Below, in pieces: positions 1,391-20,515 of a stretch of DNA of 21,403 nucleotides. Numbering within the stretch: the stretch's first letter is position 1; each line of letters opens with the position of its first letter. The position numbers and the translations under genes were made by a program. The notes beneath the pieces are model-generated. The model was not told where the DNA came from, did not search any database, and worked only from the letters and a program-made list of their open reading frames with translations. The DNA comes from a virus. The stretch covers positions 1 through 21,403 of IMG/VR virus record IMGVR_UViG_3300046450_002391. The stretch is one strand, 5' to 3'.

Positions 1391-1404
1391 ATCTTAATAT
1401 ACAC
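1391..1404 (-). promoter_or_regulatory. GTGTA-type start-proximal promoter-like motif (minus)
   Basis: On the minus strand GTGTATATTAAGAT runs directly into the GTG start at 1390. The TATATT portion would be a -10 box only five bases from the start codon. The same GTGTA-plus-AT element precedes several + strand genes at nearly the same spacing. It faces a divergent copy at 1412-1426 with only seven bases between. Confidence 0.45.
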
Positions 1405-1411
1405 ACAGGGA

Positions 1412-1426
1412 GTGTATTATATATCA
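1412..1426 (+). promoter_or_regulatory. GTGTA-type start-proximal promoter-like motif before PhoH-like gene
   Basis: GTGTATTATATATCA ends at the base before ATG 1427. TATTAT would be a -10 box six bases from the start codon. A purine run AGGGAG (1407-1412) lies too far upstream of 1427 for a normal Shine-Dalgarno. An alternative is that GTG at 1412 is itself the start codon, in which case this stretch is coding. Confidence 0.45.
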
Positions 1427-2152
1427 ATGGCAAGAAAAAAGGTTTCTCAACTAGATGGAGAAGATTTGAAATTACAGGGCTTTAATGGTCTGACTTCTCA
1501 TTTTCATATACAATCCAAAAGGTTAACAGAAAAACAAAAACAGTTTCTGGAGCTCGCTCTAGACGAAAAGACAAATATCATTTACTGCGCAGGCCCAGCT
1601 GGGACGACCAAAACTTATGTTGCGGTGTACTCGGCCCTTAGGTATTTAAGCGTAAACGTAGATCTTGATTTACTTTACGTTCGAACGGTCGTGGAGAGTG
1701 GCGAGAGGAATCTTGGCTCACTACCTGGAGACATAGATGAAAAATTCAACCCCTACATGGCTCCGCTTGACGATAAATTACGAGAAATGATTAAGCCGTC
1801 AATTATTCCAGAGCTGATATCTAAATCAAGGATTCAAGCAATGCCTATCAACTACTTAAGGGGGGCAAGCTGGAATAATAAGATTGTTATAGCGGACGAA
1901 GCTCAAAATTTTACCTTTAAAGAATTAACCACTTTAATCACGAGACTGGGTGAGAGCAGCAAGCTTATCGTTTGTGGTGACTTCCTTCAATCAGATATTA
2001 ATGGAAAGACAGGATTTAAAACGATGTTTGATCTATTTAATGATGAAGACAGCAGAAGGAAAGGGATTCATACTTTCGAGTTTACGAAAAAAGATATAAA
2101 ACGAAATAAAATTTTAAGTTTTATTATTGGCAAACTTGAAAGCGTGCATTAA
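1427..2152 (+). CDS. phoH: PhoH-like P-loop ATPase
   Basis: The 241-residue product matches the PhoH family: a P-loop GPAGTTKT (about residues 56-63), the signature RTVVESGERNLGSLPGDIDE then KFNPYMAPLDDKL (about 86-117), Walker B IVIADEAQN (about 153-161) and the late motif VCGDFLQSDI. PhoH proteins are cytoplasmic ATPases related to superfamily 1 helicases. They are common in phages, especially aquatic ones, and their role there is unsettled (RNA metabolism or stress response). The Walker A has Thr where Gly is usual before the Lys. ATG 1427 (MARKK) is chosen; an in-frame GTG at 1412 would add five residues. The gene opens the + strand block, divergent from the minus genes. Confidence 0.9.
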   Translation: MARKKVSQLDGEDLKLQGFNGLTSHFHIQSKRLTEKQKQFLELALDEKTNIIYCAGPAGTTKTYVAVYSALRYLSVNVDLDLLYVRTVVESGERNLGSLPGDIDEKFNPYMAPLDDKLREMIKPSIIPELISKSRIQAMPINYLRGASWNNKIVIADEAQNFTFKELTTLITRLGESSKLIVCGDFLQSDINGKTGFKTMFDLFNDEDSRRKGIHTFEFTKKDIKRNKILSFIIGKLESVH

Positions 2153-2157
2153 GGTTG

Positions 2158-2174
2158 GTGTATTACAATATAAC
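2158..2174 (+). promoter_or_regulatory. GTGTA-type start-proximal promoter-like motif before GAF-like gene
   Basis: GTGTATTACAATATAAC occupies the 17 bases before ATG 2175. Its first eight bases GTGTATTA are identical to those of the element at 1412. It begins six bases after the PhoH stop, with no Shine-Dalgarno near the ATG. The spacing is two or three bases longer than in the tightest copies. Confidence 0.4.
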
Positions 2175-2753
2175 ATGGATAGTTATATTATCGCTGCAAT
2201 TATAGGCGCTGCCGCAACAATTTGCGGGGTCGTTCTAAAAACATATCTTTCGGGCCATTGGCAAAAAGGAAAACTTAAAGAGCATACCGTTCAAAACGAA
2301 AATGTTTATAGGGCGCTAGAATACGCTAGGGGCAAAATTGATTGTGATAGAGTGGTCGTTTATGAATTTCATAATGGCGATGTTTATTATTCAGGAAGCT
2401 CACAACAGAAATTCAGCAACACTTATGAGGTCTTATCGGACGGAGTAAGCTCTGAGCTAAAAAACCAACAAAACTTGAGGGTATCTTCTTTTAATAGATT
2501 TATAAAGCCCTTAATTGACGAAGAGGAATATGGGTTCTGGGATATAGATCAAGTAAGTGATATAGTAACTAAAACTTTTTTCGAAGACCAGGGCACAAAG
2601 AGTACGTATTGTGTACCCATTGAATTATTAACTGGTAAAATCATTGGGATACTAGGCATAGACTATGTTAAAGGGGGGAAGAAGCTTACCCCTTCGCAAA
2701 AGAATTTTATTAAAAATCAGTCGTGTATTATCGCTGGTTATTTAAAAGCTTAA
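2175..2753 (+). CDS. Membrane-anchored GAF-like domain protein (192 aa)
   Basis: ATG 2175 is chosen because it follows the PhoH stop and gives a membrane segment directly at the N-terminus; an in-frame ATG at 2127 would overlap phoH by 26 bases. Residues about 4-23 (YIIAAIIGAAATICGVVLKT) are hydrophobic, a probable membrane anchor. The remainder resembles a GAF-type sensor fold: VVVYEFHNGDVYYSG (about 63-77), then SNTYEVLSDGVSSE, and a final CVPIE..GKIIGILGIDYV with LTPSQKNFI near the C-terminus. GAF domains bind small molecules. No output domain such as a kinase or cyclase is present. Function in the phage cycle is unknown; membrane sensing of cell state is an inference. Confidence 0.65.
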   Translation: MDSYIIAAIIGAAATICGVVLKTYLSGHWQKGKLKEHTVQNENVYRALEYARGKIDCDRVVVYEFHNGDVYYSGSSQQKFSNTYEVLSDGVSSELKNQQNLRVSSFNRFIKPLIDEEEYGFWDIDQVSDIVTKTFFEDQGTKSTYCVPIELLTGKIIGILGIDYVKGGKKLTPSQKNFIKNQSCIIAGYLKA

Positions 2754-2774
2754 AAAAATATTTAATATACTAGT

Positions 2775-3197
2775 ATGAATGCTGAATATTGTCCCCATTG
2801 TGGTTTCAAAAACGTTTATGCGGCAGTTGCTCCTAATTTTTGTGGAGGGTGCGGTTCCCCCCTCAATAAGTCTACCGCTTCGGCCAGAGCAGCTCCTAAA
2901 GCCTCCCCCAGGGCACAGGTAAAACGGTCACCCGTTGCCCCTAGGCCTACGGCTCCTCAGGAGCCAGAAGAGCGTGTGCCATTTATTAGTAAATTAGAAT
3001 ATGAAATTCAGGGAATAGAACCCAACAAAATGACTGTTGGGCAGCTAATGCAAGAAGAGCCTAGCGATGGCCCTTCTATGCTGCGTCCTCAAGCCAAAGG
3101 CAAAAAAGCCAAGGCCCTTACCTCTAAAGAGATATTGAAGGAAAGTATGGATGTATGCAAAAGCGCTAGAACTAAACCTCCTGAAGAAGTTGAATAA
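2775..3197 (+). CDS. Zinc-ribbon protein of unknown function (140 aa)
   Basis: The N-terminus is a clear zinc ribbon with two CxxC knuckles (C6/C9 in YCPHCGF and C23/C26 in FCGGCGSPL). A basic Ala/Pro/Ser-rich linker follows (about 31-68), probably disordered. The C-terminal half (about 70-140) has PFISKLEYEIQGIEPNKMTV and a Lys-rich stretch KGKKAKALTSKEILKE. Zinc ribbons of this kind bind nucleic acid or polymerase subunits. Its 3' end overlaps the sigma-like gene by 47 bases, so the two are probably co-translated, and a joint role in phage transcription is plausible but inferred. AT-rich TAATATACTAGT stands directly before the ATG in place of a Shine-Dalgarno. Confidence 0.6.
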   Translation: MNAEYCPHCGFKNVYAAVAPNFCGGCGSPLNKSTASARAAPKASPRAQVKRSPVAPRPTAPQEPEERVPFISKLEYEIQGIEPNKMTVGQLMQEEPSDGPSMLRPQAKGKKAKALTSKEILKESMDVCKSARTKPPEEVE

Positions 3198-3933
3198 AAA
3201 CGAAAAAAAGCTACCTTTTATTTATGCAGATAAAGCAGGGGTAATAGACAAGGAGCTTAGTAAACGACGCCATAAATGGTTTCTTTATTCTGTAGCCTGG
3301 ATTGACTTCGATGACGTATGCCAAATTATTCGCGCACATATTCATAAAAAATGGCACCAATGGGATCAAGAGCGAGCGCTAGAGCCATGGCTTAATAAAA
3401 TTATATCCAATCAGCTAAAAAACATTCTTCGAAATAATTACGGGAACTTTGTGCGACCCTGCTTAAATTGCCCTTTTAACCAAAGCGGTCCTCCTGATGG
3501 TGACAGAGAGGGGCTTTGCGCTTTTACCTCTAGCGGGATGCAATGTAATGAATGTCCTTTATATGCCAAATGGGAGTCTACAAAGAAAGACGCATATAAT
3601 ACTAAAATGGCGGTTACCATGGAAAATCATTCTCATGAAATGGCCATGATGCCCGAGCAGGCTTTTGATACTTTGGACGAATCTATTGAGCGCGTCCACC
3701 TTAAGATGGAAGAGGTCTTGCCCCCGAAAAAATTTAAAATTTATAAAATGCTATACATAGATTATCTTTCAGAGGCCGACGTGGCAGAAGCGATGGGGTA
3801 TAAAACTTCAGAGACGGGGAGAACTGCGGGCTATAAGCAACTCCGTAATTTAAAAAAGTTTTTTAAACAAACCGTAGAAGACTTAATGGAAAAACACGAT
3901 ATAATTATAACAGGTGGATCAATCTCTTACTGA
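3151..3933 (+). CDS. Sigma-70-like transcription factor with inserted cysteine cluster
   Basis: Residues about 41-97 read as sigma region 2: FDDVCQIIRAHIHKKW, WDQERALEPWLNKIISNQLK and NILRN, the Q/W-rich helix that binds core polymerase and the -10 DNA. Residues about 188-245 resemble region 4 with a helix-turn-helix (YLSEADVAEAMGYKTSE). Between them are five cysteines (C104, C107, C123, C132, C135; CLNC ... GLC ... QCNEC), likely a metal site. A phage sigma factor would redirect host RNA polymerase to phage promoters, as T4 gp55 does for late genes. The 5' end is uncertain: ATG 3151 overlaps the previous gene by 47 bases, and TTG at 3190 in GAAGTTGAATAA is an alternative. The next gene starts at GTG 3914, inside this one. 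Confidence 0.7.
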   Translation: MYAKALELNLLKKLNKNEKKLPFIYADKAGVIDKELSKRRHKWFLYSVAWIDFDDVCQIIRAHIHKKWHQWDQERALEPWLNKIISNQLKNILRNNYGNFVRPCLNCPFNQSGPPDGDREGLCAFTSSGMQCNECPLYAKWESTKKDAYNTKMAVTMENHSHEMAMMPEQAFDTLDESIERVHLKMEEVLPPKKFKIYKMLYIDYLSEADVAEAMGYKTSETGRTAGYKQLRNLKKFFKQTVEDLMEKHDIIITGGSISY

Positions 3934-6133: not shown

Positions 6134-8013
6134 GCTGGGAAAACGGAAAGCAAGAATATGAGAAAAACGATGTCAATGAGCGAGTCGCTAATGCCAAAGG
6201 CCTTCTTGAGGAGAAACAGGCCAAGCTATTGTTATATGAATTTTTAAGGGAAAATACTACATTTACTGTCGACCTACTGAGCGGAGTAAAGTTATTTCCT
6301 TTTCAGCATATGGCTATCAAGTCTATGTTTAAAACTGATTATTTTATGGGCGTGTGGTCACGAGGTATGTCTAAATCTTTTACTACTGCTATCTTTGCAT
6401 ACTTGGATGCTATTTTAAATCAGGGCGTAGAAATTGGCATCTTATCTAAATCGTTTAGGCAGGCCAAAATGATCTTTAGAAAAATAGAAGATATTGCCGC
6501 AAAGCCTGAGGCGAAGTACCTGTCTCAATGTATTACCCGAAAATCAAAACAAAACGACCAATGGACCTTGGAGTTTGGGGATAGCAAAATCCATGCGCTG
6601 CCCTTAGGCGACGGGGAGAAATTGCGTGGGTTTCGTTTCCACAGGATTATTATTGACGAGTTTCTTTTGATGCCTGAAAGAATTTATAACGAAGTTATCG
6701 TACCCTTTTTATCCGTAGTGCAAAACCCTACCCAAAGAGAAGACCTGTATGTTCTTGAGACAAAGTTAATTGAACAGGGAAAGATGAAAGAAGAGGACAG
6801 GCATCAATGGCCCAACAATAAACTCATTGCTTTATCTTCTGCTTCTTATAAATTTGAGTACATGTACAAACTTTATCAGGAATTTGAGAATCTTATTCAT
6901 GGGCGTGTTAAGGAAGAGGAAAATCCTTATGGAGCTAATGCTCGACGAGTCATTATGCACTTTTCTTATGATTCTGCTCCGCAAGCCCTCTATGACCAAA
7001 ACCTCATAAATCAAGCTCGTTCGTCAATGAGCCAGAGCCAGTTTGATCGAGAGTTTGGAGCTATCTTTACGGATGACAGTAGCGGCTATTTTAAAACGTC
7101 TACCATGGCCAAATGCACAGTGCCAGACGGGGACACTCCGTCCCTAGAGATTGGCGGGGACCCGAGCTCTAAGTATATCTTAGCTTTTGACCCAAGCTGG
7201 GCAGAGACGGAAAGTAGTGATGATTTTGCTATGCAAGTCTTAAAACTTAATGAATCTAACAATACATCAGTACTTGTTCATAGCTATGCATTGCCTGGGG
7301 CCAAACTAAAAGACCACATTAATTATTTTCATTATCTTTTAAAGAACTTTAATATTGTATCTATCGTTGGAGACTATAATGGAGGAGTGCAGTTTATTAA
7401 CTCTGTAAACGAAAGCAAGCTATTTAAAGACGATAAAATACAAATTGGGATTATTGAGGCCAAGTTTGATGACTTAACTAAATATGATGAATCTCTCATA
7501 GATGCAAAAAGGCAATACCAAGATGGCAAAATATGTTATTTAAGAACCCCTACTTCTGGCTGGATCAGGCAAGGAAATGAAATGTTGCAAAAAAACTTCG
7601 ATCATAAAAAAATCTGGTTCGCAGCTAGAGCAATTAATGATGAATACCATACTCAAAGAAAAAAACGAATCCCCATTAAGGATATTAAGTATATCTCCGA
7701 AAAGGCTGACGCGGCCTCTTTGTCTATGACTGGCGGCGCCAAGATGATTGACTTTCTTGAACACCAGCATGATATGATAAGTTTAACCAAGGCTGAATGC
7801 GCCCTTATCCAAATCAAGACTTCTCCTCAAGGAACACAGACTTTTGATTTGCCTGATAATCTTAAACGACAAACAGGCCCTCATAAGGCGCGCAAAGACT
7901 CCTATTCCGCATTAGTTCTTGGAAATTGGATGGTACAAATATATTATGACATGATGAGTGCGCAAGCTAAGCCCCCGCCGCTCCAGGGCTTTACTCCTAT
8001 GTTTATAAGATAA
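6130..8013 (+). CDS. terL: Large terminase subunit (DNA packaging ATPase/nuclease)
   Basis: The 627-residue product has the two-domain layout of phage large terminases. In the N-terminal motor domain are the adenine-site motif FPFQHMAI (about 56-63), a P-loop WSRGMSKSF (76-84) and Walker B plus catalytic Glu HRIIIDEF (D176, E177). In the C-terminal RNase H-like nuclease are ILAFDPSWAETESSDD (D354 and following acids), SIVGDYNGG (D415) and KDSYSALVLG near residue 595, the acids that bind metal for cutting the concatemer. The P-loop has Ser in place of Gly before Lys82. The start ATGA overlaps the upstream stop, and TAATG joins it to the next gene. Confidence 0.95.
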   Translation: MSWENGKQEYEKNDVNERVANAKGLLEEKQAKLLLYEFLRENTTFTVDLLSGVKLFPFQHMAIKSMFKTDYFMGVWSRGMSKSFTTAIFAYLDAILNQGVEIGILSKSFRQAKMIFRKIEDIAAKPEAKYLSQCITRKSKQNDQWTLEFGDSKIHALPLGDGEKLRGFRFHRIIIDEFLLMPERIYNEVIVPFLSVVQNPTQREDLYVLETKLIEQGKMKEEDRHQWPNNKLIALSSASYKFEYMYKLYQEFENLIHGRVKEEENPYGANARRVIMHFSYDSAPQALYDQNLINQARSSMSQSQFDREFGAIFTDDSSGYFKTSTMAKCTVPDGDTPSLEIGGDPSSKYILAFDPSWAETESSDDFAMQVLKLNESNNTSVLVHSYALPGAKLKDHINYFHYLLKNFNIVSIVGDYNGGVQFINSVNESKLFKDDKIQIGIIEAKFDDLTKYDESLIDAKRQYQDGKICYLRTPTSGWIRQGNEMLQKNFDHKKIWFAARAINDEYHTQRKKRIPIKDIKYISEKADAASLSMTGGAKMIDFLEHQHDMISLTKAECALIQIKTSPQGTQTFDLPDNLKRQTGPHKARKDSYSALVLGNWMVQIYYDMMSAQAKPPPLQGFTPMFIR

Positions 8014-8681
8014 TGGGTCTATTTAAGCCGTATAGGTCCGACTTTTTAAAACTTAGCTGGCAGAACGTATATTACGGCAAAGACATTATTCTTTGTGGTA
8101 CAGGTCCATCATTGTGGGATGTAGACCCCCAGCAACTCCGAAATAAAAACAAATCTATTTTTGGGCTTAATAATTCTTTTAATTTAATAGAGCCCGATTT
8201 CTGGATGGGTGTAGATGAACCTTCAGCCTTTAAGTCTTCTTTGGCACAGTCTGAATGTATTAAGTTTTTTAGCTGGAACCACCGCAAAAACAAGAAAATT
8301 AAAAAGGCACAGAATGTTTATTTTTATAAACTTTATGGGGTCGAAAAGGTAAGCAATGGAGAATTTAGTTCAGACGTATGTTTTTCTGGCCCCTATATTT
8401 CTTTCCTTTTTGAGGGCTATACTTTTTCTATGGCCTTGCAAATGATATATTGGCTAGGATTCAGAAGAGTCTTCCTGGTGGGTTGCGATTTTGGAGGGGA
8501 TAGCCAGCTTTCTAAATTATCGACAAAAGTCTATAAAGAAGGAGGGCAACAAGAGAATCTAACTAAAGCATTAGATTTTTTAAAAGTTACTAGCAATTCA
8601 GGTGGCTTAGATATAATATCATGTACGGAGAATTCTCCTATTAATGAATTTTTAGCTTATAAACCCTTATCCGAAATCTAA
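8013..8681 (+). CDS. DUF115 / MAF-like (sialyltransferase-fold) protein
   Basis: The 222-residue product starts at ATG 8013, sharing one base with the terminase stop. It shows the pattern of DUF115/motility-accessory-factor and related sialyltransferase-like proteins: a nucleotide-binding-type strand-loop DIILCGTGPSLWDVD (about 24-38), IFGLNNSFNLIEPDFWMGVDE (about 49-69, split as IFGLNNSF and PDFWMGVDE), and a late LGFRRVFLVGCDFGG (about 148-162). Relatives transfer sugars to flagellin or glycans, or act on pterins. Standing between terminase and portal, it might modify a virion or host surface component. The exact substrate cannot be told. It is followed by a TAATG-coupled micro-ORF. Confidence 0.6.
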   Translation: MGLFKPYRSDFLKLSWQNVYYGKDIILCGTGPSLWDVDPQQLRNKNKSIFGLNNSFNLIEPDFWMGVDEPSAFKSSLAQSECIKFFSWNHRKNKKIKKAQNVYFYKLYGVEKVSNGEFSSDVCFSGPYISFLFEGYTFSMALQMIYWLGFRRVFLVGCDFGGDSQLSKLSTKVYKEGGQQENLTKALDFLKVTSNSGGLDIISCTENSPINEFLAYKPLSEI

Positions 8682-8818
8682 TGTCCTTAGAAGTTATCTA
8701 TCACTTACGCCAGGAAATAAAAGCCAAAGACCAAGAGCTTTGCCAACTTAAGAAGGCAAACCAAAGCTTACTGAAGGAAGTAGCAGAGCTAAAAAAAGAC
8801 CTTATTCCTAAAAGTTAG
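8681..8818 (+). CDS. 45-residue coiled-coil peptide
   Basis: ATG 8681 overlaps the previous stop as TAATG, and the frame ends TAG at 8816-8818. The peptide is almost entirely a charged amphipathic helix with leucines at heptad-like spacing (VIYHLRQEIKAKDQELCQLK, then SLLKEVAELKKDLI), so a short coiled coil is likely. Its coupling to the upstream gene supports real translation. A small coiled-coil protein just before the portal gene might be an assembly chaperone or be part of the preceding protein's function; no family is recognised. Its last bases form part of a palindrome (8811-8837). Confidence 0.55.
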   Translation: MSLEVIYHLRQEIKAKDQELCQLKKANQSLLKEVAELKKDLIPKS

Positions 8819-8837
8819 AAAGTTAACTTTTAACTTT
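8811..8837. repeat. Near-perfect palindrome (AAAGTTA ... TAACTTT) upstream of portal gene
   Basis: The outer arms AAAGTTA (8811-8817) and TAACTTT (8831-8837) flank the perfect palindrome AAAGTTAACTTT (8819-8830), with one unpaired G at 8818. Thus 26 of 27 bases belong to nested dyads. It overlaps the stop of the 45-residue gene and ends 11 bases before the promoter-like box of the portal gene, so an operator for a dimeric regulator or a transcript hairpin is possible. No T-run follows, so a normal terminator is less likely. Confidence 0.5.
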
Positions 8838-8848
8838 GGGGGACTTTC

Positions 8849-8862
8849 GTGTATAATACTTT
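8849..8862 (+). promoter_or_regulatory. GTGTA-type promoter-like motif before portal gene
   Basis: GTGTATAATACTTT abuts ATG 8863. It holds a perfect TATAAT five bases from the start codon, preceded by TG as in extended -10 promoters but without the usual single-base gap. There is no Shine-Dalgarno after it; GGGGGA at 8838-8843 lies some 19 bases upstream of the ATG. This is the clearest copy of the element. Confidence 0.55.
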
Positions 8863-10869: not shown

Positions 10870-10886
10870 ACTTTTGTATTTTTCTT

Positions 10887-10904
10887 GTGTAACCCTTTAA
10901 GGCG
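10887..10904 (+). promoter_or_regulatory. Weak GTGTA-type element before protease-scaffold gene
   Basis: GTGTAACCCTTTAAGGCG precedes ATG 10905. Only the GTGTAA part fits the shared element; the downstream half is less AT-rich and instead contains AAGG, a possible weak Shine-Dalgarno four to seven bases from the ATG. The preceding stretch is T-rich (CTTTTGTATTTTTCTT). Both readings are possible. Confidence 0.3.
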
Positions 10905-12455: not shown

Positions 12456-12461
12456 TTAGTT

Positions 12462-13187
12462 ATGGCACTTAGAATATTACCATTCAGACAATATGCCGAA
12501 CAAGACGTGGTTAACCTGTATGCCCTACGTGGAACTGACGTGAATAGTCAGCTCAATACCAAGGGAGCGGGTGACGCTGGCGTTTTTGTTTCGGTAGAAA
12601 TCGGGAAACTGGACGGAGGCCCTGTTACGTACGCTTCAAGTACGTATTTAGGCAAGACAGATTACCCTTATGTGGGAAAGAATCAATATCCTTCCACACA
12701 AATGCGAGTCAAGGTCGCGCTCACGGGAGACTCAATCCTGGGCATGACCCTTAATCAAACCGCCTTAAAGGACGAAAATGAAGAGAAGCTTCTTTATTAC
12801 CCTCAAAAGGCTTTAGAAAACCAGGCCGTCCTTTCGGGGCAAACCGTTCCTGTATTAACTCGTGGCATTGTCACGCTTAATGGGAGCGCAGGTGGAGCTT
12901 TTGGAAATAATGCATATGTAGATGACGCTAATTGGGCGGTTGGCAATGCATGCATCCTCGGCGCGAACGAAGATGGACGACTTACGGGAGTACCCATTAC
13001 ATCGTCCCATCTACGGACGGTGAACATCTGGGGCAACGGCACAGATGAACTGGGCCGTATCCTGGCTACGGGATCAAGAGTTGCGGGAGTTACTGAGGAC
13101 CAGTTCGCTGGCGCAGGAGGAACGCTTACCAATGCAGGCGCAACAGGCGCTTACTCAATAGTTCGAATTAATTGCGGACACGGATGA
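12462..13187 (+). CDS. Probable capsid decoration protein (241 aa)
   Basis: The gene lies between the protease-scaffold and the major capsid protein, where lambda-gpD-type decoration genes sit. The product is beta-rich and Gly/Ala/Asn-rich, without Cys until near its end. It contains MRVKVALTGDSILGMTLNQT (about 82-101), ALENQAVLSGQTVPVLTRGI (about 117-136), and VTLNGSAGGAFGNNAYVDD, a pattern resembling capsid-stabilising beta-tulip proteins that sit on the outside of expanded heads. Codons are rich in C/G at third positions, a sign of high expression shared with the capsid gene. The start ATG 12462 has no obvious Shine-Dalgarno. Identity as decoration protein is inferred from position and composition. 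Confidence 0.6.
   Translation: MALRILPFRQYAEQDVVNLYALRGTDVNSQLNTKGAGDAGVFVSVEIGKLDGGPVTYASSTYLGKTDYPYVGKNQYPSTQMRVKVALTGDSILGMTLNQTALKDENEEKLLYYPQKALENQAVLSGQTVPVLTRGIVTLNGSAGGAFGNNAYVDDANWAVGNACILGANEDGRLTGVPITSSHLRTVNIWGNGTDELGRILATGSRVAGVTEDQFAGAGGTLTNAGATGAYSIVRINCGHG
12626..12646. repeat. Inverted repeat TACGTAC / GTACGTA within decoration gene
   Basis: TACGTAC (12626-12632) and GTACGTA (12640-12646) are perfect reverse complements around a 7-base loop GCTTCAA. It lies inside coding sequence (residues about 56-62), so it may be a chance or weak RNA hairpin. Confidence 0.35.
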
Positions 13188-13206
13188 TTAGGAAGAGCTT
13201 AAAACA

Positions 13207-14316
13207 ATGACAATTACATTAAAAAGAACTGAAGAACAATTAGAACTCCTCAAGGCGATGGGTTCCAAGAATCGGGATGTTGCTTATGAAGCCCAAGCTG
13301 CGCTTGGCTCCTTTATGGGTCCTATCCTGGCGGAAGTCATCAATAATGCTCCTGCGCTTAGTAATTTATTTACTACGCTGAGTTTTAATCCTGACGATAA
13401 CCCAAGTATCCCCCTTGATCTGTATTACGATATTACAGCTGAGGATTATATTACGGTTTACTCGCAGTCGATGCCTGGAGGCCTTCCAACCAATCATGTT
13501 GCACCAACAGCCAGTGAAATGAAATTCACTACCTATAACCTAGATAGTGCTGTTAGTTTCGATAAGAAGTATGCCGCTAAGAGTCGCTTAGACGTAGTCG
13601 GTAAGACTTTTACTAGAGTCGCCCAAGAAATTCTCCTCAAGCAGGAGAGAACTTCGGCCAACTTAATTCTGGGTACCCTTGCTGACACTCAATCGTCAGG
13701 AATCGACCAGACCCTAACCTCTAAATCAGCTGGTAGATTTCTGCTTGCTGACTTAAATGCTCTAATTACTCAATCCAAGAGAGTGAATGAGTCGTGGTCC
13801 CGTGGTACTCCTCTCACAAAGAGGAGTGGCGTAACGGACCTACTGGTTAGCCCTGAGGTTATTGAGGATATTCGCGGAATGGCGTATAATCCAATCAATA
13901 CGAAGACAGCCTCAGGATCGACCCCTGTCAGTCAAGGCGCTGCGTGGGTAACGGCTCCTGATGACATTCGTCGGGGACTGTTTAACGATTCGGGCGCAAT
14001 GAGCTCCTTCTTTGGAGTTAACCTGATGGAAATCTATCAATTAGGACCTTTAACTAATCCTGGTAATTCATTTACCAAGATTTTTAATGGACTAGGTACT
14101 TTTGCCGCAGGCAGAAATGATCTGGTTCTGGGTCTTGACTTAAGCAGGGATTCCTTGTTTAGGGCGGTAGTCCTCGATTCGGACAGTGGTTCAGAGTTTA
14201 CTCTGGCTGCCGACGATCAGTACAGCGTACGACAACAGAAAATTGGTTACTACGGCGCAGTTGAAGAAGGAAGAATGGTTCTCGATAAGAGGGCAATCTT
14301 TGGCGTTATGGTTTAA
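13207..14316 (+). CDS. Major capsid protein (HK97-fold type)
   Basis: The 369-residue product follows protease-scaffold and decoration genes, has high-expression codon use, and is closed by a strong terminator, as expected for a major capsid gene. It has an N-terminal helical arm (MTITLKRTEEQLELLKAMGS), then SIPLDLYYDITAEDYITVYS, a long spine-helix-like segment VVGKTFTRVAQEILLKQERT (about 130-149), then SANLILGTLADT, and a late segment LVLGLDLSRDSLFRAVVLD. No clear cleavage site for the maturation protease is obvious in the N-terminus. AGGAAG (13190-13195) twelve bases before the ATG is a usable Shine-Dalgarno. Family assignment is by position, length and general pattern. Confidence 0.8.
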   Translation: MTITLKRTEEQLELLKAMGSKNRDVAYEAQAALGSFMGPILAEVINNAPALSNLFTTLSFNPDDNPSIPLDLYYDITAEDYITVYSQSMPGGLPTNHVAPTASEMKFTTYNLDSAVSFDKKYAAKSRLDVVGKTFTRVAQEILLKQERTSANLILGTLADTQSSGIDQTLTSKSAGRFLLADLNALITQSKRVNESWSRGTPLTKRSGVTDLLVSPEVIEDIRGMAYNPINTKTASGSTPVSQGAAWVTAPDDIRRGLFNDSGAMSSFFGVNLMEIYQLGPLTNPGNSFTKIFNGLGTFAAGRNDLVLGLDLSRDSLFRAVVLDSDSGSEFTLAADDQYSVRQQKIGYYGAVEEGRMVLDKRAIFGVMV

Positions 14317-14338
14317 ACTACCCATAGTTTGTTTTGAA

Positions 14339-14369
14339 AGAGCCGCCTTCGGGCGGCTCTTTTGTTTTT
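14339..14369 (+). terminator. Strong intrinsic terminator after capsid gene
   Basis: Arms AGAGCCGCC (14339-14347) and GGCGGCTCT (14352-14360) pair perfectly around a stable TTCG tetraloop, followed by TTTGTTTTT (14361-14369). This is a textbook rho-independent terminator. It would separate the head genes from the neck genes and set high capsid mRNA apart. Confidence 0.93.
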
Positions 14370-14387
14370 CACTTAAAGTGGATTTTT

Positions 14388-14410
14388 GTGTATTCCTTAT
14401 TAAAATAAGG
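14388..14410 (+). promoter_or_regulatory. GTGTATT element with CCTTATT/AATAAGG dyad after the capsid terminator
   Basis: GTGTATT (14388-14394) matches the shared promoter-like element and is followed at once by an inverted repeat CCTTATT (14395-14401) and AATAAGG (14404-14410). The ATG at 14445 is 57 bases downstream and has a good Shine-Dalgarno, AAAGGAG (14431-14437), so this would be a conventional leadered transcript. Restart of transcription is expected here because a terminator lies just upstream. The dyad could be an operator or leader hairpin. Confidence 0.4.
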
Positions 14411-14444
14411 AAACCCCTAACCCTAGGATAAAAGGAGAAAAATT

Positions 14445-14840
14445 ATGAGCAACACATCAAAACGAGGGCCAGGTAGGCCAAGAAAACAGAAGCTCGATAC
14501 TTTGCAACAGGCACATGGCAAAGATGAGCAGATTAAACGCGCGAAAGAGTTGGAAGAATTAGTAGGCATTGCCTCTATTAATCCGTATGGCACTACTATT
14601 GCAGAAAAATTTGAGGAAGATATTCATGAGATGTCCTTAGTGGACCTTCAGGAACTAGCAGTTAAAGTAGGCGTCTTCCCTAACGGGACAAAGAGCGCCT
14701 TAAAAAGCAAGCTGGTCAAGGGTTTTAGCGAATACAACAGAGCAAGCATGGTAGTTCCTGCTCCTCGAGACATTCCCCTTAGAAATCCTAATAGTAAAAA
14801 AACTCAAGAGGCTCTTCGCTTAATGAAAGAGGGTCTCTAA
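14445..14840 (+). CDS. AT-hook plus SAP-like DNA-binding protein (131 aa)
   Basis: Residues 7-14 (RGPGRPRK) are a textbook AT-hook, which binds the minor groove of AT-rich DNA. Residues about 62-97 (HEMSLVDLQELAVKVGVFPN then GTKSALKSKLVKGF) resemble a SAP domain, another AT-rich DNA binding helix pair, with its typical L-x-V-x-DLQ-ELA and G-x-K-x-x-L pattern. The C-terminus is basic. It has one of the few strong Shine-Dalgarno sequences here and is the first gene after the capsid terminator, abutting the first neck gene with no gap. It may be a virion-associated DNA binder or a head completion factor. Specific role unknown. Confidence 0.7.
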   Translation: MSNTSKRGPGRPRKQKLDTLQQAHGKDEQIKRAKELEELVGIASINPYGTTIAEKFEEDIHEMSLVDLQELAVKVGVFPNGTKSALKSKLVKGFSEYNRASMVVPAPRDIPLRNPNSKKTQEALRLMKEGL

Positions 14841-15359
14841 ATGAGCGATATTGGGGGATTAGCTACACGCATTTGGGATACCGAATTCGGAGACGAAACG
14901 GGAGCGGCACATCGCACTACCAACATCTCCTCCATATCGGGGTGGCTGCAAGCAAATGTAGGGCAGCTCAATAATTATATTTATACAGCCTTTAGTGGGC
15001 AGTCTAATGGCACTATGTTTCCTACGGGGAGCTTTAGGCTTGAGGAACAAAACATTTATACTGAAATTTACTTAGCTCACTATTACAAGAAGAAGTCTCG
15101 CAATGTCCTAAGGGGCATAGATGGCACGCTTAGTAGTGATATAGATTGGATTAGATTGAGAGAAGGCGATTCCCTTATTGTCCGTAGTAATAAAGTAGAT
15201 GTATCTAAGGTTTATATATTATTAGCAAAGGAGGCAGATCAAAAGCTCAAGAACTTAGTTTACTACTACAATCTATATCAAGCTGCTCCTCGACAAGTTG
15301 GAGGTCAAGACGGCAATCCTTTTCCTGCTTCAGGTCAAGTAGGTTATCGTTATCTATAA
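14841..15359 (+). CDS. Probable head-tail connector/adaptor protein (172 aa)
   Basis: The first base follows the previous stop immediately, so translation is probably coupled. The product is soluble and mixed alpha/beta: ISSISGWLQANVGQLNNYIY (about 30-49), IYTEIYLAHYYKKKSRN (about 71-87), and WIRLREGDSLIVRSNKVDVS (about 101-120) followed by KVYILLAKEADQKLKNLVYY. Helical bundles with such aromatic-rich helices are seen in adaptor (connector) proteins that dock under the portal. The identification is by position between capsid and tail-tube genes; no diagnostic motif is seen. It could equally be another neck component. Confidence 0.5.
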   Translation: MSDIGGLATRIWDTEFGDETGAAHRTTNISSISGWLQANVGQLNNYIYTAFSGQSNGTMFPTGSFRLEEQNIYTEIYLAHYYKKKSRNVLRGIDGTLSSDIDWIRLREGDSLIVRSNKVDVSKVYILLAKEADQKLKNLVYYYNLYQAAPRQVGGQDGNPFPASGQVGYRYL

Positions 15360-15365
15360 TGAAAC

Positions 15366-15812
15366 ATGGCGAGCTTAATAAGCAGTGGTCAAAAAAACCA
15401 ACTCGAGAATGTTTTTGTAAATGTACACGATACTTTCTCTAGGCAGATTACTATTTATACAGTAAAGAAGGAGATCTTTGTTGCTACCAATCAAACTTAT
15501 AACGCTTTATATTCTCGAATTAAAGATGCCACTGGTAGTACTAAGACCGTTACGTCTGCTACTGTAAATGCCAGAGTTCAGTATCTCACCAAGCAATATA
15601 TTGAGGAAGAATATGCCTTGAGGGCACAAACCAATTTGCCTATTTCTGAAGGGCAGCTAAGGCTTAAACTGGACGAAACAGGATATACTTCTTTTAAATT
15701 CGCCAATAGAATTGAAGTGGATGGTACCGTGTGGAAAATTACCACCGACGCCTCACGTATAGGATTATTTAGCCCTAAGTTTTATTTGTTATTTTTAGAA
15801 AGAGCTAATTAA
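15366..15812 (+). CDS. Probable head-closure (stopper)-like neck protein (148 aa)
   Basis: The start is ATG 15366, six bases after the previous stop and without a Shine-Dalgarno. The product has an N-terminal strand segment (FSRQITIYTVKKEIFVATNQ, about 24-43), a helical middle, and a C-terminal beta-rich half: EGQLRLKLDETGYTSF, then NRIEVDGTVWKITTDASRIG (about 113-132) and FYLLFLERAN. A dG-x-W-x-I strand followed by a glycine and a final strand is the pattern of small beta-barrel stopper or head-closure proteins such as SPP1 gp16. Overlap of one base with the next gene suggests coupling. Assignment is moderate at best. Confidence 0.5.
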   Translation: MASLISSGQKNQLENVFVNVHDTFSRQITIYTVKKEIFVATNQTYNALYSRIKDATGSTKTVTSATVNARVQYLTKQYIEEEYALRAQTNLPISEGQLRLKLDETGYTSFKFANRIEVDGTVWKITTDASRIGLFSPKFYLLFLERAN

Positions 15813-16399
15813 TGATTATTAATAAAGCTAGCCTGCAGCGTACTTTGGGCAAAGAAGTTCCAAGAGCTATAGGGAAAAGGGTATTTGCGGAATTAGAGCA
15901 AGAATTCGAAAAAGCTAAGAAGATATTATTGGCCGAATTTGAATCCCATGTTGTATCTCAGGAGCTAAAGGGGAAGTCGGGAGGCACAAACCTAACTAAC
16001 ACCTTAGGTGGAGAAGGTAATTTATATTCATTTATTGGCTTTAGTGGAGAAGACGCTCTCTCATCGTTGCGCGACTTATTACAAAACAATGTTAAAATTA
16101 TAAGCAAAAAAACAGACTCCCAGACCCTTACGTTTTCTATTAAAATAGCTTTTCCTAGTAGTGATGAAATTGCTTCGGTAACCCCTATGCCGTGGGCGCC
16201 AGGCATGAGTTGGGCTGAAGGCATAGAACGTGGGATTTCAGGGTTAGGAAATTATTTAGCCAAAGATTCTCCCGTTAGTCGTTCGGGCAAAGGCATCCAG
16301 GTTAACGTACAAGTGCGAGCAGCTACCTTTTCTCCCACGGAGTATATGACGGGGCTTTTAAGGGATTTTATAAATGCATTAACTAAAGAAATAAAATGA
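15812..16399 (+). CDS. Probable neck/tail-completion protein (195 aa)
   Basis: ATG 15812 overlaps the preceding stop by one base (TAATG), and the end overlaps the next start as ATGA. The N-terminal half is helical (RVFAELEQEFEKAKKILLAE, about 24-43); the middle has TDSQTLTFSIKIAFPSSDEI (about 100-119), and a Trp-rich loop PMPWAPGMSWAEGIERGISG (about 125-144); it ends in a helix YMTGLLRDFINALTKEIK. This resembles HK97-gp10-type tail completion proteins by layout and position, but the match is not decisive. Confidence 0.5.
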   Translation: MIINKASLQRTLGKEVPRAIGKRVFAELEQEFEKAKKILLAEFESHVVSQELKGKSGGTNLTNTLGGEGNLYSFIGFSGEDALSSLRDLLQNNVKIISKKTDSQTLTFSIKIAFPSSDEIASVTPMPWAPGMSWAEGIERGISGLGNYLAKDSPVSRSGKGIQVNVQVRAATFSPTEYMTGLLRDFINALTKEIK

Positions 16400-17268
16400 A
16401 GGTCCAGTTTGATCACGAGCTACAATCTAGTTTTTATTTATGGTTTGATGACCGAATAACGCGTATCATGTCAGGCATCCAGCCTGATATCTCTATGACA
16501 TTTGAGTATTATGCTGATACCAATGATACCCCCTCTAATCTAGATGCCTATTATGGCCCTTATAGACAATTGCTTGCTAATGGCGCGGCAGTCCCAAGCG
16601 GGGTTTATATTGGTGGGGTTTTTAAACCCCAAGATACTTCAGCCGACAAATACCTTTTAATTGATTATAATCAAGGGCGTGTGCTTTTGGACCCTACAGA
16701 ATATGGGAGCCAGCCACTATCTGTAAGTGGAGACTTTTCCACAAAAGATTTTAATGTTTACATGACCAATGAAACAGAAGAAGAGCTATTAATTGAGAAT
16801 ACTTTTATATTATCGTCCGATAGTGAAACTCAATTGGAGAACGCAGGTAAATTAAATATAGATCATTATGTTGTCCCTGCGGCTTTTGTTACTATGGCTA
16901 GCTCTCAAAATAAACCTTTTGCCATGGGAGGGCTAGACCAGACCCTTTATAGAATCAGAACGGTAGTAATGGCTGACAGTAATTATGGGCTCGACGCCAT
17001 GCTTTCTCATTTTAGGGACACTAAAAACCTGGGGGTTCCTTTAGTTACTTATTCGAATTTTCCTTTCGGGGAATATTTTCATACCAAAAATCCTCCTTAT
17101 ACCTATACGGGACTAGTTAATGGGCAAAGAGGAGATATCTGGATAGAAGATGTAAAAACATCGAAACTTTACGACAGAAATAGTGTACTTAGATTAAGTA
17201 AAGGCGTAAAGGTGGGCTTTATAGATTTTGAACTGAATATAGTGCGAAGTACGCGGGTATGTTCTTAG
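16396..17268 (+). CDS. Structural protein of unknown function, neck/tail region (290 aa)
   Basis: ATG 16396 overlaps the previous gene as ATGA. The product is beta-rich with many Tyr, Asn, Asp and Gly residues (ISMTFEYYADTNDTPSNLDA, about 32-51; YIGGVFKPQDTS; YLLIDYNQGRVLLDPTEYGS), a virion-structural composition. Later comes YRIRTVVMADSNYGLDAMLS (about 186-205) and a long aromatic segment (FHTKNPPYTYTGLVNGQRGD). It ends the neck cluster immediately before the tail-tube genes, where a tail terminator or neck protein would be expected. I do not recognise its family. Confidence 0.6.
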   Translation: MKVQFDHELQSSFYLWFDDRITRIMSGIQPDISMTFEYYADTNDTPSNLDAYYGPYRQLLANGAAVPSGVYIGGVFKPQDTSADKYLLIDYNQGRVLLDPTEYGSQPLSVSGDFSTKDFNVYMTNETEEELLIENTFILSSDSETQLENAGKLNIDHYVVPAAFVTMASSQNKPFAMGGLDQTLYRIRTVVMADSNYGLDAMLSHFRDTKNLGVPLVTYSNFPFGEYFHTKNPPYTYTGLVNGQRGDIWIEDVKTSKLYDRNSVLRLSKGVKVGFIDFELNIVRSTRVCS

Positions 17269-17357
17269 GTCTTAAAAAAAAAATTCCCATCACTATATGT
17301 TAGCTGTAATAAGCTATAAATTCAAATCACATTTTAACCTTAAAAAAATAATATATT
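17269..17357 (+). promoter_or_regulatory. AT-rich intergenic spacer before first tail-tube gene
   Basis: These 89 bases contain a run of ten A (17274-17283), a small dyad TAGCT (17301-17305) / AGCTA (17312-17316), and AATAATATATT directly before ATG 17358. The GTGTA half of the shared element is missing, but the AT-rich end lies at the same distance from the start codon. A promoter for the abundant tail-tube gene is likely here, without a proven box. No clear terminator hairpin was found. Confidence 0.35.
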
Positions 17358-18614
17358 ATGGCAAGAAATAGAGTAATTTATCAATCCGAAGCTTTGTTCG
17401 TGGGGCCGACTACAGGTGGGATCTCCAATGGCGATCACAGTCAACTTATTAGAGTTCAGGATATTAGTCACGACATGGCCGCTACGCGGACCGATGTTTT
17501 CGAATTTGGGCGTCTCGCTCCCCTCGACAAGGTGATGATCGAGCCCCCAACAGTAACCTTAGATTTTTCCTATTTAGTAACGAATGGCGGAAATGAAGAG
17601 GCTATGGGCATGAGCATATCTAACACTACGACCAAGACCGTCAAGTGGGATGCTGGCACAGCCCCTGCATTAATTAGTGGCCTCATTGAGGATGGGTCAG
17701 TAAGCCCAGGAGAAAAGAACTATTATGTTGTAACAGTTCCTGAATCTGAGGATGCAGAAGGGAACACTTCTTCTAACGACAAAACTTATAATGGCTTTGC
17801 AGTCGTAGGTTTCGGTAATGCAGTAGTCTCAAACTATAGCGTAAATGGCGCCGTCGGAGACTTTCCGTCTGCCAGCGTAAGCGCTGAAGCCTTTAATGTG
17901 TCTTATATTTCAGGTACAAGGGGTGCAACTGCTGACTCATGGGTGACCATTGCAGCAATTCCTAGTGTCAAGAAAGGGGCAGGAGCCCTGGAGGATGGAA
18001 CAGCAGCTCTTCCGTCACCAACTACGGGAAATGCTCCTGTATTTGCGATTCGCCCTGGAGATATTACGTTGAACTTCGATTCCAGCACAGCAGGCACAGC
18101 AGGCGCAGCAGGTCAACTTTCTGTTGGGGGTGCAGTTATACCAACCAACGCCAATGAAGATCCTGACGCAGTAGTTGAACGCCGCGGCCAAGCAGAACCT
18201 ATGCATATTCAGAACTTCAGCATTGATGCGCCGTTAACGCGGACCGCATTGACTCGACTGGGTTCTACATTCCCTTATTACAGAGCAATTGATTTCCCAC
18301 TAGACATAACCCTAAATGTTAGCGCTTACTTGGCTGACACGGAAACAGGTAGTTTAGTAGATCTCATTTGTGATGATCAGAAGAGAATAATTGACGTTAA
18401 CATGCGGGTTCCTTGTACTTCAACATCATCCGACACAGTGGAGAATCCTCTGACTATCTGTTATAGATTAAGGAATGCTCAGCTCACGTCTCAGAACATG
18501 GCAGCGACCATTGGAGACACGAAGACCGTTGATCTATCCTTCCAGGCTCAATATGGAGGAGCGACTGACACAAGTAACGGACTATTCGTTTCTGGACGCG
18601 CAGACGCATCGTAA
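17358..18614 (+). CDS. Tail-tube-like major tail protein, two related domains (418 aa)
   Basis: The product is beta-rich with high-expression codon use and its own terminator, as expected for a major tail protein. Two related segments are visible. The N-terminal one is about residues 31-74 (IRVQDISHDMAATRTD ... EFGRLAPLD ... EPPTVTLDFSYL), the C-terminal about 282-330 (MHIQNFSIDAPLTRTA ... RLGSTFPYY ... DFPLDITLNVSAYL). Both read V/I-Q-x-I/F-S, then a G-x-x-x-P turn, P and a long strand, like tail-tube domains. Between them is an insertion with a 9-bp repeat encoding TAG-TAG-AAG (18087-18113). Related genes follow at 18719 and 19634. Tail tube for DNA passage is the likely role. Confidence 0.7.
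   Translation: MARNRVIYQSEALFVGPTTGGISNGDHSQLIRVQDISHDMAATRTDVFEFGRLAPLDKVMIEPPTVTLDFSYLVTNGGNEEAMGMSISNTTTKTVKWDAGTAPALISGLIEDGSVSPGEKNYYVVTVPESEDAEGNTSSNDKTYNGFAVVGFGNAVVSNYSVNGAVGDFPSASVSAEAFNVSYISGTRGATADSWVTIAAIPSVKKGAGALEDGTAALPSPTTGNAPVFAIRPGDITLNFDSSTAGTAGAAGQLSVGGAVIPTNANEDPDAVVERRGQAEPMHIQNFSIDAPLTRTALTRLGSTFPYYRAIDFPLDITLNVSAYLADTETGSLVDLICDDQKRIIDVNMRVPCTSTSSDTVENPLTICYRLRNAQLTSQNMAATIGDTKTVDLSFQAQYGGATDTSNGLFVSGRADAS
18087..18113 (+). repeat. Three tandem 9-bp units in tail gene
   Basis: ACAGCAGGC, ACAGCAGGC and GCAGCAGGT lie head to tail, encoding TAG, TAG, AAG in a flexible-looking loop of the tail protein. The number of units may vary between relatives through slippage. Confidence 0.7.
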
Positions 18615-18630
18615 GCTTAGTATTCTAAGC
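18615..18630 (+). repeat. Small hairpin GCTTAG/CTAAGC after tail gene
   Basis: GCTTAG (18615-18620) and CTAAGC (18625-18630) pair around TATT, right after the stop of the tail gene and ten bases before the strong terminator. It may stabilise the mRNA 3' end or help termination. Confidence 0.5.
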
Positions 18631-18640
18631 ATATATTTAA

Positions 18641-18668
18641 AAGCCCCCAATTTTGGGGGCTTTTTTAT
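18641..18668 (+). terminator. Strong intrinsic terminator after first tail-tube gene
   Basis: AAGCCCCCAA (18641-18650) and TTGGGGGCTT (18653-18662) form a GC-rich stem (core GCCCCC/GGGGGC), followed by TTTTTTATTT from 18661. This is a clear rho-independent terminator, leaving the first tail-tube gene as a transcript separate from the next two. Confidence 0.92.
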
Positions 18669-18703
18669 TTATAAATACAATCAACCAATTTATATAATAT
18701 AAG

Positions 18704-18718
18704 GTGTAATTATATAAC
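18704..18718 (+). promoter_or_regulatory. GTGTA-type promoter-like motif before second tail-tube-like gene
   Basis: GTGTAATTATATAAC directly precedes the GTG start at 18719, with the first G 15 bases upstream of the start. It comes after a strong terminator, so a promoter is required between 18670 and the gene. There is no Shine-Dalgarno between the box and the GTG; a purine patch AAGG lies at 18701-18704. Confidence 0.5.
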
Positions 18719-19630
18719 GTGGCGCTTTATAGGAATATCTACGAGGACCAGAATGTATATATTTCTGGATACAAGTTAAGAGGAGTCCAGTCTTTTGATG
18801 GCGGCTTTGAAATTCCGTATGAGCCTATTAAGGTGGCTGGAATTGGCTATTTAGATTATTCTATTAATTCAAATTTAGAAGGCAGCTTTAATGTGAAGAG
18901 GTTTATCGTCGGTACGGGAGACCCCTTAACTGGAATGTTTGATACTCCTCTAAGTGGACACCTGACTTATAAAGGAGGCAACCCTTCCGTCGCGAGAGAG
19001 TCTTTAAGGCTGGGCTTTACTAATGGATATATAAATTCTTATTCTTCTTCGTGCGCAGTAGGCCAGGTTCCTGCTTTAGACTTTGGTATTACTGTATATG
19101 GAGACATGGGGTCGGAGGTGCCTAAAGCGCCCGAAGGGACAAACGACGAGGTCCTTCTGGTTCCTGGCAAGGGAGATATTAGCTTCTTTAATGTTTCAGG
19201 AGAAAAGACCAATAGGCTACAGTCTTATGATTATCGTATTACTATTCCCCGTAAACCTATTTATACTTTAGGTTCAGGCTTGGAGCCTGGGCTCTTTAAT
19301 ATAGATTACCCTATTGAGGTTGAATTATCTTTTAATATGGAAATTGATGACTTTGAGGCGGCAGACATGCACGACCTCCTATGCGACCAGCCTAAAGGCG
19401 ACATTTGTATTGTTTTAAGTGGCTGCGGAGGAAGCGAGAAACTGAGAGAGTTCCACGCTCCGTGCCCTATATTTTTAGGCATTCAAGAAAATAGTGCTAT
19501 AGGAGAAATGTTATCTGTAGAGATAAAATATAAATCTTATATTGATCACATAAGCGGTGTCCCTCCTTTGGTTGCAGGCGGCCAATGCGGTTATGCGGCG
19601 CAAGAATGTGTGGGAGCTGAATATTTATAA
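18719..19630 (+). CDS. Tail-tube-like protein 2, two related domains (303 aa)
   Basis: The start is GTG 18719 (GTGGCGCTT, MAL), matching the MA-x starts of the sister genes. An N-terminal segment (about 15-62: ISGYKLRGVQSFDGGFEIPY ... LDYSINSNLEGSFNV) and a C-terminal one (about 167-215: LQSYDYRITIPRKPIYTLGS ... IDYPIEVELSFNMEIDD) match the two segments of the 17358 gene. The best match is YPIEVELS ... DLLCDQPKGDICI against FPLDITLN ... DLICDDQKRIIDV. Several Cys cluster late (GGQCGYAAQECVG). It is probably a second tube-type or tube-associated protein (for example a tube initiator, tail-tip or baseplate hub-like tube). Confidence 0.65.
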   Translation: MALYRNIYEDQNVYISGYKLRGVQSFDGGFEIPYEPIKVAGIGYLDYSINSNLEGSFNVKRFIVGTGDPLTGMFDTPLSGHLTYKGGNPSVARESLRLGFTNGYINSYSSSCAVGQVPALDFGITVYGDMGSEVPKAPEGTNDEVLLVPGKGDISFFNVSGEKTNRLQSYDYRITIPRKPIYTLGSGLEPGLFNIDYPIEVELSFNMEIDDFEAADMHDLLCDQPKGDICIVLSGCGGSEKLREFHAPCPIFLGIQENSAIGEMLSVEIKYKSYIDHISGVPPLVAGGQCGYAAQECVGAEYL

Positions 19631-19633
19631 GTC

Positions 19634-20482
19634 ATGGCTATACAATTTGAAAACTGCCCCGTTATCTTTCGGCCTCAAGTGCCTGTAGCAAGCACCTTTG
19701 AAAATGTCTTCGTGTTGGCGAATTCTGCTCAGCTTAGCGACAGCTTGCCTATGACAGAAATAAGACGTTTAGGCCGAGAAGGGGGCTATGCAGGTCGATC
19801 ACAGGCCCCAGTAGAAGGGTCGTTGTCTGTAGAGTTCGTTTATGGGGAGATGTCGGTTGCGGTGGAAGGCGAGACTCTTAATGCGCCGCTCAAAGCATGG
19901 TTCGATAATCTTACGGGTACTGTAGAGTATATTGATGCGGACATTGGTCCTTATCAGTTTTCGAGCGGCCTCCTTACTAATTTTTCATTTTCAGCTGAAC
20001 CTAATGCTGTCGTTAAGGCTTCGGCCGATTTCGTTTTTTATAACAGTGAACTCTCAAAAGCTATCGCCTCGGGGATAAGCAATGCATCTTTAACCGCCGT
20101 GGGGCACGGAGTTTATTCAAGCGGCTCTTTTAGTGATGCTAGTATTGGCCTAAATAATCACCCTCTTTCTTTTTCTTATAATTTATCTCAAACATTTGAA
20201 CCTTCTCGTTATGTTGGTCAAGTAGCTACGGCTTTAGTGCAAAGACGTGATGGTCAGATTTCAATTGATGTTGAGGGGGATGATTTGGGGGCGGCTTTAA
20301 CTACATCTGCGGGCTCACTTTGCAAGAACAGAATTACTGATGCAACATTTAATATTAGCGGCTTATGTAAGCCTACATTTGGCGACCAATATCCAGTTAG
20401 GGGATACGTCGAAAATAGAGAGATATCTGTGTCGGAGGGAGACATAGTTCACGGAAACCTTTCTATTATAGACTATTTTTAA
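19634..20482 (+). CDS. Tail-tube-like protein 3, two related domains (282 aa)
   Basis: ATG 19634 is three bases after the previous stop. The N-terminal segment (about 24-72: VFVLANSAQLSDSLPMTEIR, then RLGREGGYAGRSQAPVEGSL, then SVEFVYGEM) and the C-terminal one (about 174-222: PLSFSYNLSQTFEPSRYVGQ, then VATALVQRRDGQISIDVEGD) have the same order of strand, G-turn and long strand as in the two preceding genes. The match is weaker but consistent, including a GSLC that aligns with the DLLC/DLIC region. Coupled with protein 2, it is likely made in the same transcript. A distinct tube-like role, perhaps at one end of the tail, is inferred. Confidence 0.6.
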   Translation: MAIQFENCPVIFRPQVPVASTFENVFVLANSAQLSDSLPMTEIRRLGREGGYAGRSQAPVEGSLSVEFVYGEMSVAVEGETLNAPLKAWFDNLTGTVEYIDADIGPYQFSSGLLTNFSFSAEPNAVVKASADFVFYNSELSKAIASGISNASLTAVGHGVYSSGSFSDASIGLNNHPLSFSYNLSQTFEPSRYVGQVATALVQRRDGQISIDVEGDDLGAALTTSAGSLCKNRITDATFNISGLCKPTFGDQYPVRGYVENREISVSEGDIVHGNLSIIDYF

Positions 20483-20501
20483 TGGAATCTCTTTTTTATA
20501 A

Positions 20502-20515
20502 GTGTAATATGATAT
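20502..20515 (+). promoter_or_regulatory. GTGTA-type promoter-like motif before 95-aa gene
   Basis: GTGTAATATGATAT abuts ATG 20516. TAATAT would be the -10 box, five bases from the start codon. The preceding bases are T-rich (CTTTTTTATAA), and no Shine-Dalgarno is present. Confidence 0.5.

Follow-up and report, generated by a model that had tools for sequence, protein, structure and literature searches.

The box GTGTAWWAT, which stands in front of start codons in the stretch of viral DNA analysed here and in its relatives, is, with a probability that we put at roughly two in three, the −10 element of a late promoter class that is read by a phage ECF-like sigma factor together with the host RNA polymerase, the predicted mRNA being leaderless or nearly so. 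We infer this promoter role, the point of transcription start, the timing and the identity of the reader from the position of the box, its conservation, a one-sided limit on its spacing, the terminators that abut it and the presence of the sigma gene. In the mechanism that we propose, the product of 3151-3933, acting as sigma subunit of the host RNA polymerase, would recognise the box with little or no contribution from a −35 region, and transcription would start about six bases downstream of it. A first G at −14 would thus place the start at the first base of the start codon, and with the first G at −15 to −19, one to five leader bases would come before the codon; the choice of the start codon would be set by the promoter and not by a Shine-Dalgarno sequence. 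Downstream genes inside an operon would carry no box, and a distal box, such as that at 14388, would generate a leader, often with a Shine-Dalgarno sequence.

The stretch (hereafter the window) comprises 21,403 bases and is a whole virus record. Its genes include those for a PhoH-like protein, a GAF protein, a sigma-like protein, an ERCC4-type nuclease, the terminase large subunit (TerL) and tail proteins. Searching a viral collection with the terminase led to 342 related stretches, in contigs of up to 194 kb. No cultured relative was found, the best TerL matches among phage isolates being about 25-27% identical, and the clade is therefore an uncultivated one. Fourteen relatives were fetched and their genes were predicted with a simple codon-based finder, which gave back the expected gene set in the window; all start positions in the relatives are predictions of this finder. 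An MptE-like gene (8013-8681; Pfam PF01973, above cut-off) lies between the terminase gene and the putative portal gene of the window, and among the 14 relatives it was detected in G001, G008 and G011 only.

Every box listed in the preliminary description is present, including the weaker copy before 10905 and the distal one at 14388. Two of them are divergent and share one 36-bp gap: GTGTATATTAAGAT (1391-1404, minus strand, first G at −14) abuts the GTG start of gene 1390-1112, at the place of which relatives have ATG (G002) or GTG (G014), and GTGTATTATATATCA (1412-1426, first G at −15; plus strand, as for all features that follow) abuts the PhoH-like gene (1427-2152; PF02562, E = 5.6e-49). 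Next comes GTGTATTACAATATAAC (2158-2174, first G at −17), before the gene of a GAF-domain protein (2175-2753; PF01590, E = 3.8e-5) that opens the sigma operon. Further along the window, GTGTATAATACTTT (8849-8862, −14) precedes the putative portal gene 8863, so named solely by its size and its place after the terminase, GTGTAACCCTTTAAGGCG (10887-10904, −18) precedes gene 10905, GTGTAATTATATAAC (18704-18718, −15) abuts the GTG start at 18719 and GTGTAATATGATAT (20502-20515, −14) stands before gene 20516. The distal copy (14388-14402) has its first G at −57, i.e. 57 nt before the start of gene 14445.

What is special about GTGTA in the window is its placement, not the number of its occurrences. 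With at most one mismatch allowed, GTGTAWWAT is found 20 times where 22.1 are expected; this lack of over-representation would suit an explanation by chance or AT-rich composition. But in 7 out of its 17 occurrences GTGTA begins between −18 and −14 relative to a start codon (0.11 expected), and the first G falls at −19 to −13 for 7 of 28 starts, against 0.107 expected when positions are rotated (P = 1.1e-4; we take the few offsets that reach this value as neighbours of the true one). Since position-specific enrichment also recurs in many independent genomes and is seen in none of the control phages, chance is refuted by the position statistics and its probability is negligible. None of the 13 tightly packed genes of the window has a box, as had been noted before, and much the same holds for the relatives, where 2 of 550 genes with a gap below 5 have one. 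The spaced window genes 2775, 13207, 17358 and 20822 also lack it, and a box at 2723 lies inside a gene, with no start after it.

Enrichment in relatives had been set beforehand as the test of the proposal, and it was found in the contigs mentioned above and in many further related loci. An unbiased scan of all 1024 5-mers by position before 634 spaced starts gave two top words, TTGAC at −36/−35 (96 occurrences vs 7.5 expected) and GTGTA at −15/−14 (65 vs 5.7). Counts that do not depend on gene models agree: GTGTA-N9-ATG and GTGTA-N10-ATG occur 48 and 33 times vs about 9, and TTGAC-N30-ATG and TTGAC-N31-ATG 134 and 78 times vs about 40. For the four control phages, the number of GTGTA words at the start-proximal position was zero in each; only Shine-Dalgarno-like words were enriched before starts in T4 and Bacillus phage Slash, and phiYS40 displayed TTGAC at −36/−35. 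Counted from the start codon, a TA-led, −10-like element is present above background at positions of about −10 to −12; a −10 element that precedes the codon by about 10-12 bp marks an mRNA as leaderless (PMC3160421, PMC12340547).

The spacing is limited on one side. In a non-redundant set of 701 starts from 11 genomes, the first G of GTGTA is at −14 in 51 cases, at −15 in 20 and at −13 in none, positions −13 to −5 together accounting for 4; the corresponding counts for TTGAC are 76 at −35, 16 at −34 and 1 at −33. One base closer, the predicted transcription start would fall inside the start codon, and such a limit is therefore as expected for leaderless mRNA; it fits selection against initiation of transcription within the AUG. 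Alternatively, the box could be a promoter from which transcripts start a few bases upstream of the codon, with short leaders of about 3-10 nt that would not be leaderless in the strict sense. This would be in keeping with the minority of boxes found at −17 to −22 in the same set, with the PhoH orthologs that have the box at least 30 bases away, and with the start sites of phi32_gp36, which vary from 6 to 8 bp downstream of its element (PMC8948821). But the most frequent position, −14, and the abrupt cut-off at −13 agree with initiation on the codon itself, and we judge short leaders to be quite improbable.

Conservation at orthologous genes is strong for some boxes and weak for others. Before gene 8863, GTGTA is found in all 38 different ortholog upstreams, exactly at −14 in 30 of them, down to 48% protein identity, and the box of gene 18719 is kept in 7 out of 7. 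For genes 10905 and 2175, GTGTA is at −20 to −12 in 28/44 and 19/30 different ortholog upstreams, respectively; in those relatives where the ortholog of 10905 directly follows the terminase gene, the box comes immediately after the terminase stop codon. The box of the PhoH gene is kept in most, not all, ortholog upstreams. At gene 20516, one of the 7 different upstreams compared, among which is the window's own, contains GTGTA; AT-rich or TATAAT-like sequence is mostly all that precedes the orthologs of 20516, 2775 and 17358. GTGTAATATAA or GTGTATAATAA remains in use in two distant lineages, whose TerL is 58-59% and whose sigma factor is 36-37% identical.

Two observations concern neighbouring sequences. 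The promoter of gene 8863 is preceded by a conserved array (8810-8847) made of ACTTT words (at 8826, 8833 and 8843 in the window), usually spaced by 7 and 11 bp, and a palindrome, AAAGTTAACTTT (8819-8830). Of the 15 sets scanned, 13 have one array per genome with at least three ACTTT words, and such arrays were seen at the 8863 promoter only; the array looks like an activator or operator site. In front of the zinc-ribbon-like gene that precedes the sigma gene (window 2761-2774 and orthologs), many relatives have a TATAAT-like sequence a few bases before the start, with neither GTG nor TTGAC, and these sites perhaps form a third leaderless class.

The relation of the boxes to terminators and to neighbouring genes is relevant to the level at which they act. 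Six boxes start at the first base past the T-run of a strong intrinsic terminator, which is the case for none in shuffled sequences, and in such places just 14-19 nt separate the end of the terminated transcript from the start codon. The terminator upstream of the 18719-type box (18640-18666 in the window, before the box at 18704) adjoins the box directly in several relatives. Where divergent genes are 34-36 bp apart, two boxes stand back to back between them. The tie between box and start codon could also be explained if the box acted in RNA, as an element of translation initiation, and not as a DNA promoter. But several features are at odds with this: some boxes follow a terminator T-run without any gap, some copies are distal and come with a leader, operon-internal starts are devoid of the box, and divergent pairs share 34-36 bp. 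On account of the abutting terminators and the distal copies we reject an RNA-level translation signal, to which we accord hardly any probability.

A pyrimidine at −1 is typical of transcription starts. It is found at 84% of early starts, 75% of late starts and 41% of tightly packed ones, as would suit promoters that start transcription at the codon. Shine-Dalgarno words precede 2 of 110 late starts, 2 of 153 early starts and 11 of 39 starts with a distal GTGTA. The low counts are partly forced, the boxes filling that space, and are weak evidence alone. More telling is gene 14445, for which a distal GTGTA at −29 to −59 is kept in 26/26 different ortholog upstreams, about half of them with a Shine-Dalgarno word. 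In the window, an intrinsic terminator (14337-14370) follows gene 13207-14316, and the leader that the distal box would produce contains AAAGGAG (14431-14437). This sequence and AGGAAGAG before 13207 show that Shine-Dalgarno sequences are rare in the window and not absent, as the preliminary description had it. Its proposal of leaderless phage promoters is supported by the one-sided spacing, the abutting terminators, the −1 pyrimidine and a Shine-Dalgarno signal that is depleted at near boxes but often present at distal ones. Against the proposed mechanism count the several spaced genes that lack the box and the share of GTG starts: these are poorly tolerated in leaderless initiation in E. coli, and 13 of the 110 late starts (about 12%) are GTG.

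The candidate reader of the box, which the preliminary description had missed, is the ECF-like sigma factor encoded at 3151-3933, with a region 2, a Cys4 insertion and a region-4-like helix-turn-helix. Its match to sigma-70 region 2 (PF04542) scores 25.5 bits, for a curated cut-off of 24, and region 2 is matched by 37/37 homologs at E<=0.1; the gene is present in 14/14 relatives. In the structural model (mean pLDDT 74, pTM 0.41), region 2 can be overlaid on that of ECF sigma factors over 73-77 residues, at 2.2-2.7 A. Region 4 is less certain: the Pfam r4_2 match is below cut-off (E = 0.041), and when modelled residues 173-253 are aligned with region-4 domains, the deviation is 2.3-3.3 A (Z 7.1-7.6). 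The Cys4 insertion (residues 104-135), located between region 2 and the C-terminal helix-turn-helix, has four cysteines conserved in homologs and is unusual in sigma factors.

This phage sigma factor probably reads the GTGTA class, because a motif that has no −35 signal and is rarely accompanied by TTGAC resembles phage sigma promoters. What counts against the link is that the box motif is the same where the sigma is merely 36-37% identical, which leaves no co-variation signal to use. A phage RNA polymerase was considered as reader as well, and no beta-subunit match (PF00562) was found in seven genomes. Another possibility is that the box, while being a leaderless promoter, is read by a sigma factor of the host, either the housekeeping one, to which it would be an atypical −10 or extended −10 element, or another, the phage protein doing something else. 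Part of the box does resemble TATAAT, and the late promoters of Thermus phage P23-45, of the extended −10 type, are used by host sigmaA (PMC7403470). But the boxes hardly ever have TTGAC at −35 (2 genes in per-genome counts), and information is near zero in the region upstream of the box in the relatives, with no informative −35. Furthermore, the canonical extended −10 is TGnTATAAT, while GTGTATAAT has no base between TG and the hexamer; genes with boxes and genes with TTGAC promoters lie for the most part in separate regions of the genomes, and the sigma gene is always present. We therefore regard recognition by a host sigma as unlikely and favour the phage sigma factor.

The TTGAC class, also missing from the preliminary description, has no member within the window. 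In the relatives its TANNNT peaks at −12 from the start codon; with TTGAC at −35, these are the canonical −35/−10 positions with the start codon as +1, the same start-codon geometry as that of the box. Probable early genes of the relatives would thus use sigma70-type promoters (TTGACA, TANNNT), again with the start codon as +1, and both classes look leaderless. They are found in largely different genome stretches, TTGAC genes occupying for instance 57-98 kb in G008; the labels 'early' and 'late' are our assignments from gene content and position. A further set of small probable early genes, at about 18000-28600 in G003 (L102-L104) and 12000-18700 in G001 (L098), has TTGAC...CTGTCATACT promoters with TTGAC clustered at −68 to −65 and a conserved leader like ATTAAGATTAACCATAACGAAA before the ATG. 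These are probably a leadered early class lacking Shine-Dalgarno sequences.

A broader proposal, for and against which we see about equal grounds, is that, in this uncultivated clade, the first genes of operons have for the most part done without 5′ leaders. Early promoters of the host type and late promoters specific for the phage sigma would both have the start codon as +1, promoter recognition would be the main determinant of translation start, and the host would have to translate leaderless mRNA efficiently. As to this host, TerL relatives are found in four MAGs with conflicting labels. For a Verrucomicrobiales-labelled MAG, the TTGAC..ATG count looked strong vs the reversed pattern but was about 1.2-fold with a spacing control, and a longer promoter pattern gave little signal in two phyla. 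Starts analysed directly in MAG pieces gave no uniform result: those of a Halobacteriovorax-labelled MAG had Shine-Dalgarno sequences and a minor TANNNT peak at −12. In pieces L198-L207 of the bacterial genome G137, from the phylum of a relative-holding MAG, Shine-Dalgarno words were found in 2/93 cases and TTGAC at −39 to −34 before 12 of 93 spaced starts, vs 1 in the control band; this lineage may itself use many leaderless genes. If the proposal is true, one could tell directly from the sequence where transcription starts, which genes form an operon, to which temporal class they belong and even which start codon they use, and this for hundreds of genomes of uncultivated phages. The host would be predicted to handle leaderless mRNA well, and one small sigma factor with one 9-bp element would constitute a compact test bed for the making and high-level translation of leaderless mRNAs.

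Several known systems share part of these features. T4 late promoters consist of one element, TATAAATA, which is read by a small phage sigma, gp55. The clade resembles T4 in having a one-element late promoter and differs from it in that T4 late genes have Shine-Dalgarno sequences in the control; a T4-like TATAAATA was in no clear excess at −20 to −8 over −60 to −21. As in leaderless bacterial genes (Deinococcus-Thermus, Actinobacteria), a TANNNT-type element lies next to the ORF, but those are cellular housekeeping promoters, whereas GTGTA promoters follow a consensus of their own and have a phage sigma factor as candidate reader. Middle and late mRNAs of phiYS40 are reported to be leaderless (PMC3594737), and this phage shares with the clade the TTGAC signature at −36/−35 in the same scan; middle and late promoters of P23-45 belong to the extended −10 class (PMC7403470). 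Neither of them shows GTGTA, and in the clade, unlike these phages, probable early genes also look leaderless. In phiEco32, early genes rely on host sigma70, and late promoters, recognised with the phage sigma gp36, have a single element, tAATGTAtA, with the start 6-8 bp downstream and no −35 (PMC8948821). A phage-encoded sigma-like protein, a single-element promoter without −35 and a TGTA core are thus common to both. The full tAATGTAtA, however, is not matched, the enriched word here being GTGTA, with G before the shared core. Moreover, gp36 is reported to be without region 4, while the model of the clade protein shows a Cys4 insertion and a domain that resembles region 4, and the spacing tied to the start codon, seen in the clade, does not figure in the passages on phiEco32 that were consulted. 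Leaderless phage mRNA (phiYS40) and single-element phage-sigma promoters (phiEco32) are already known; our literature search found no description of the GTGTA motif, and the motif, the way these features are combined and the adoption of both start-codon-tied promoter classes across the clade appear to be new.
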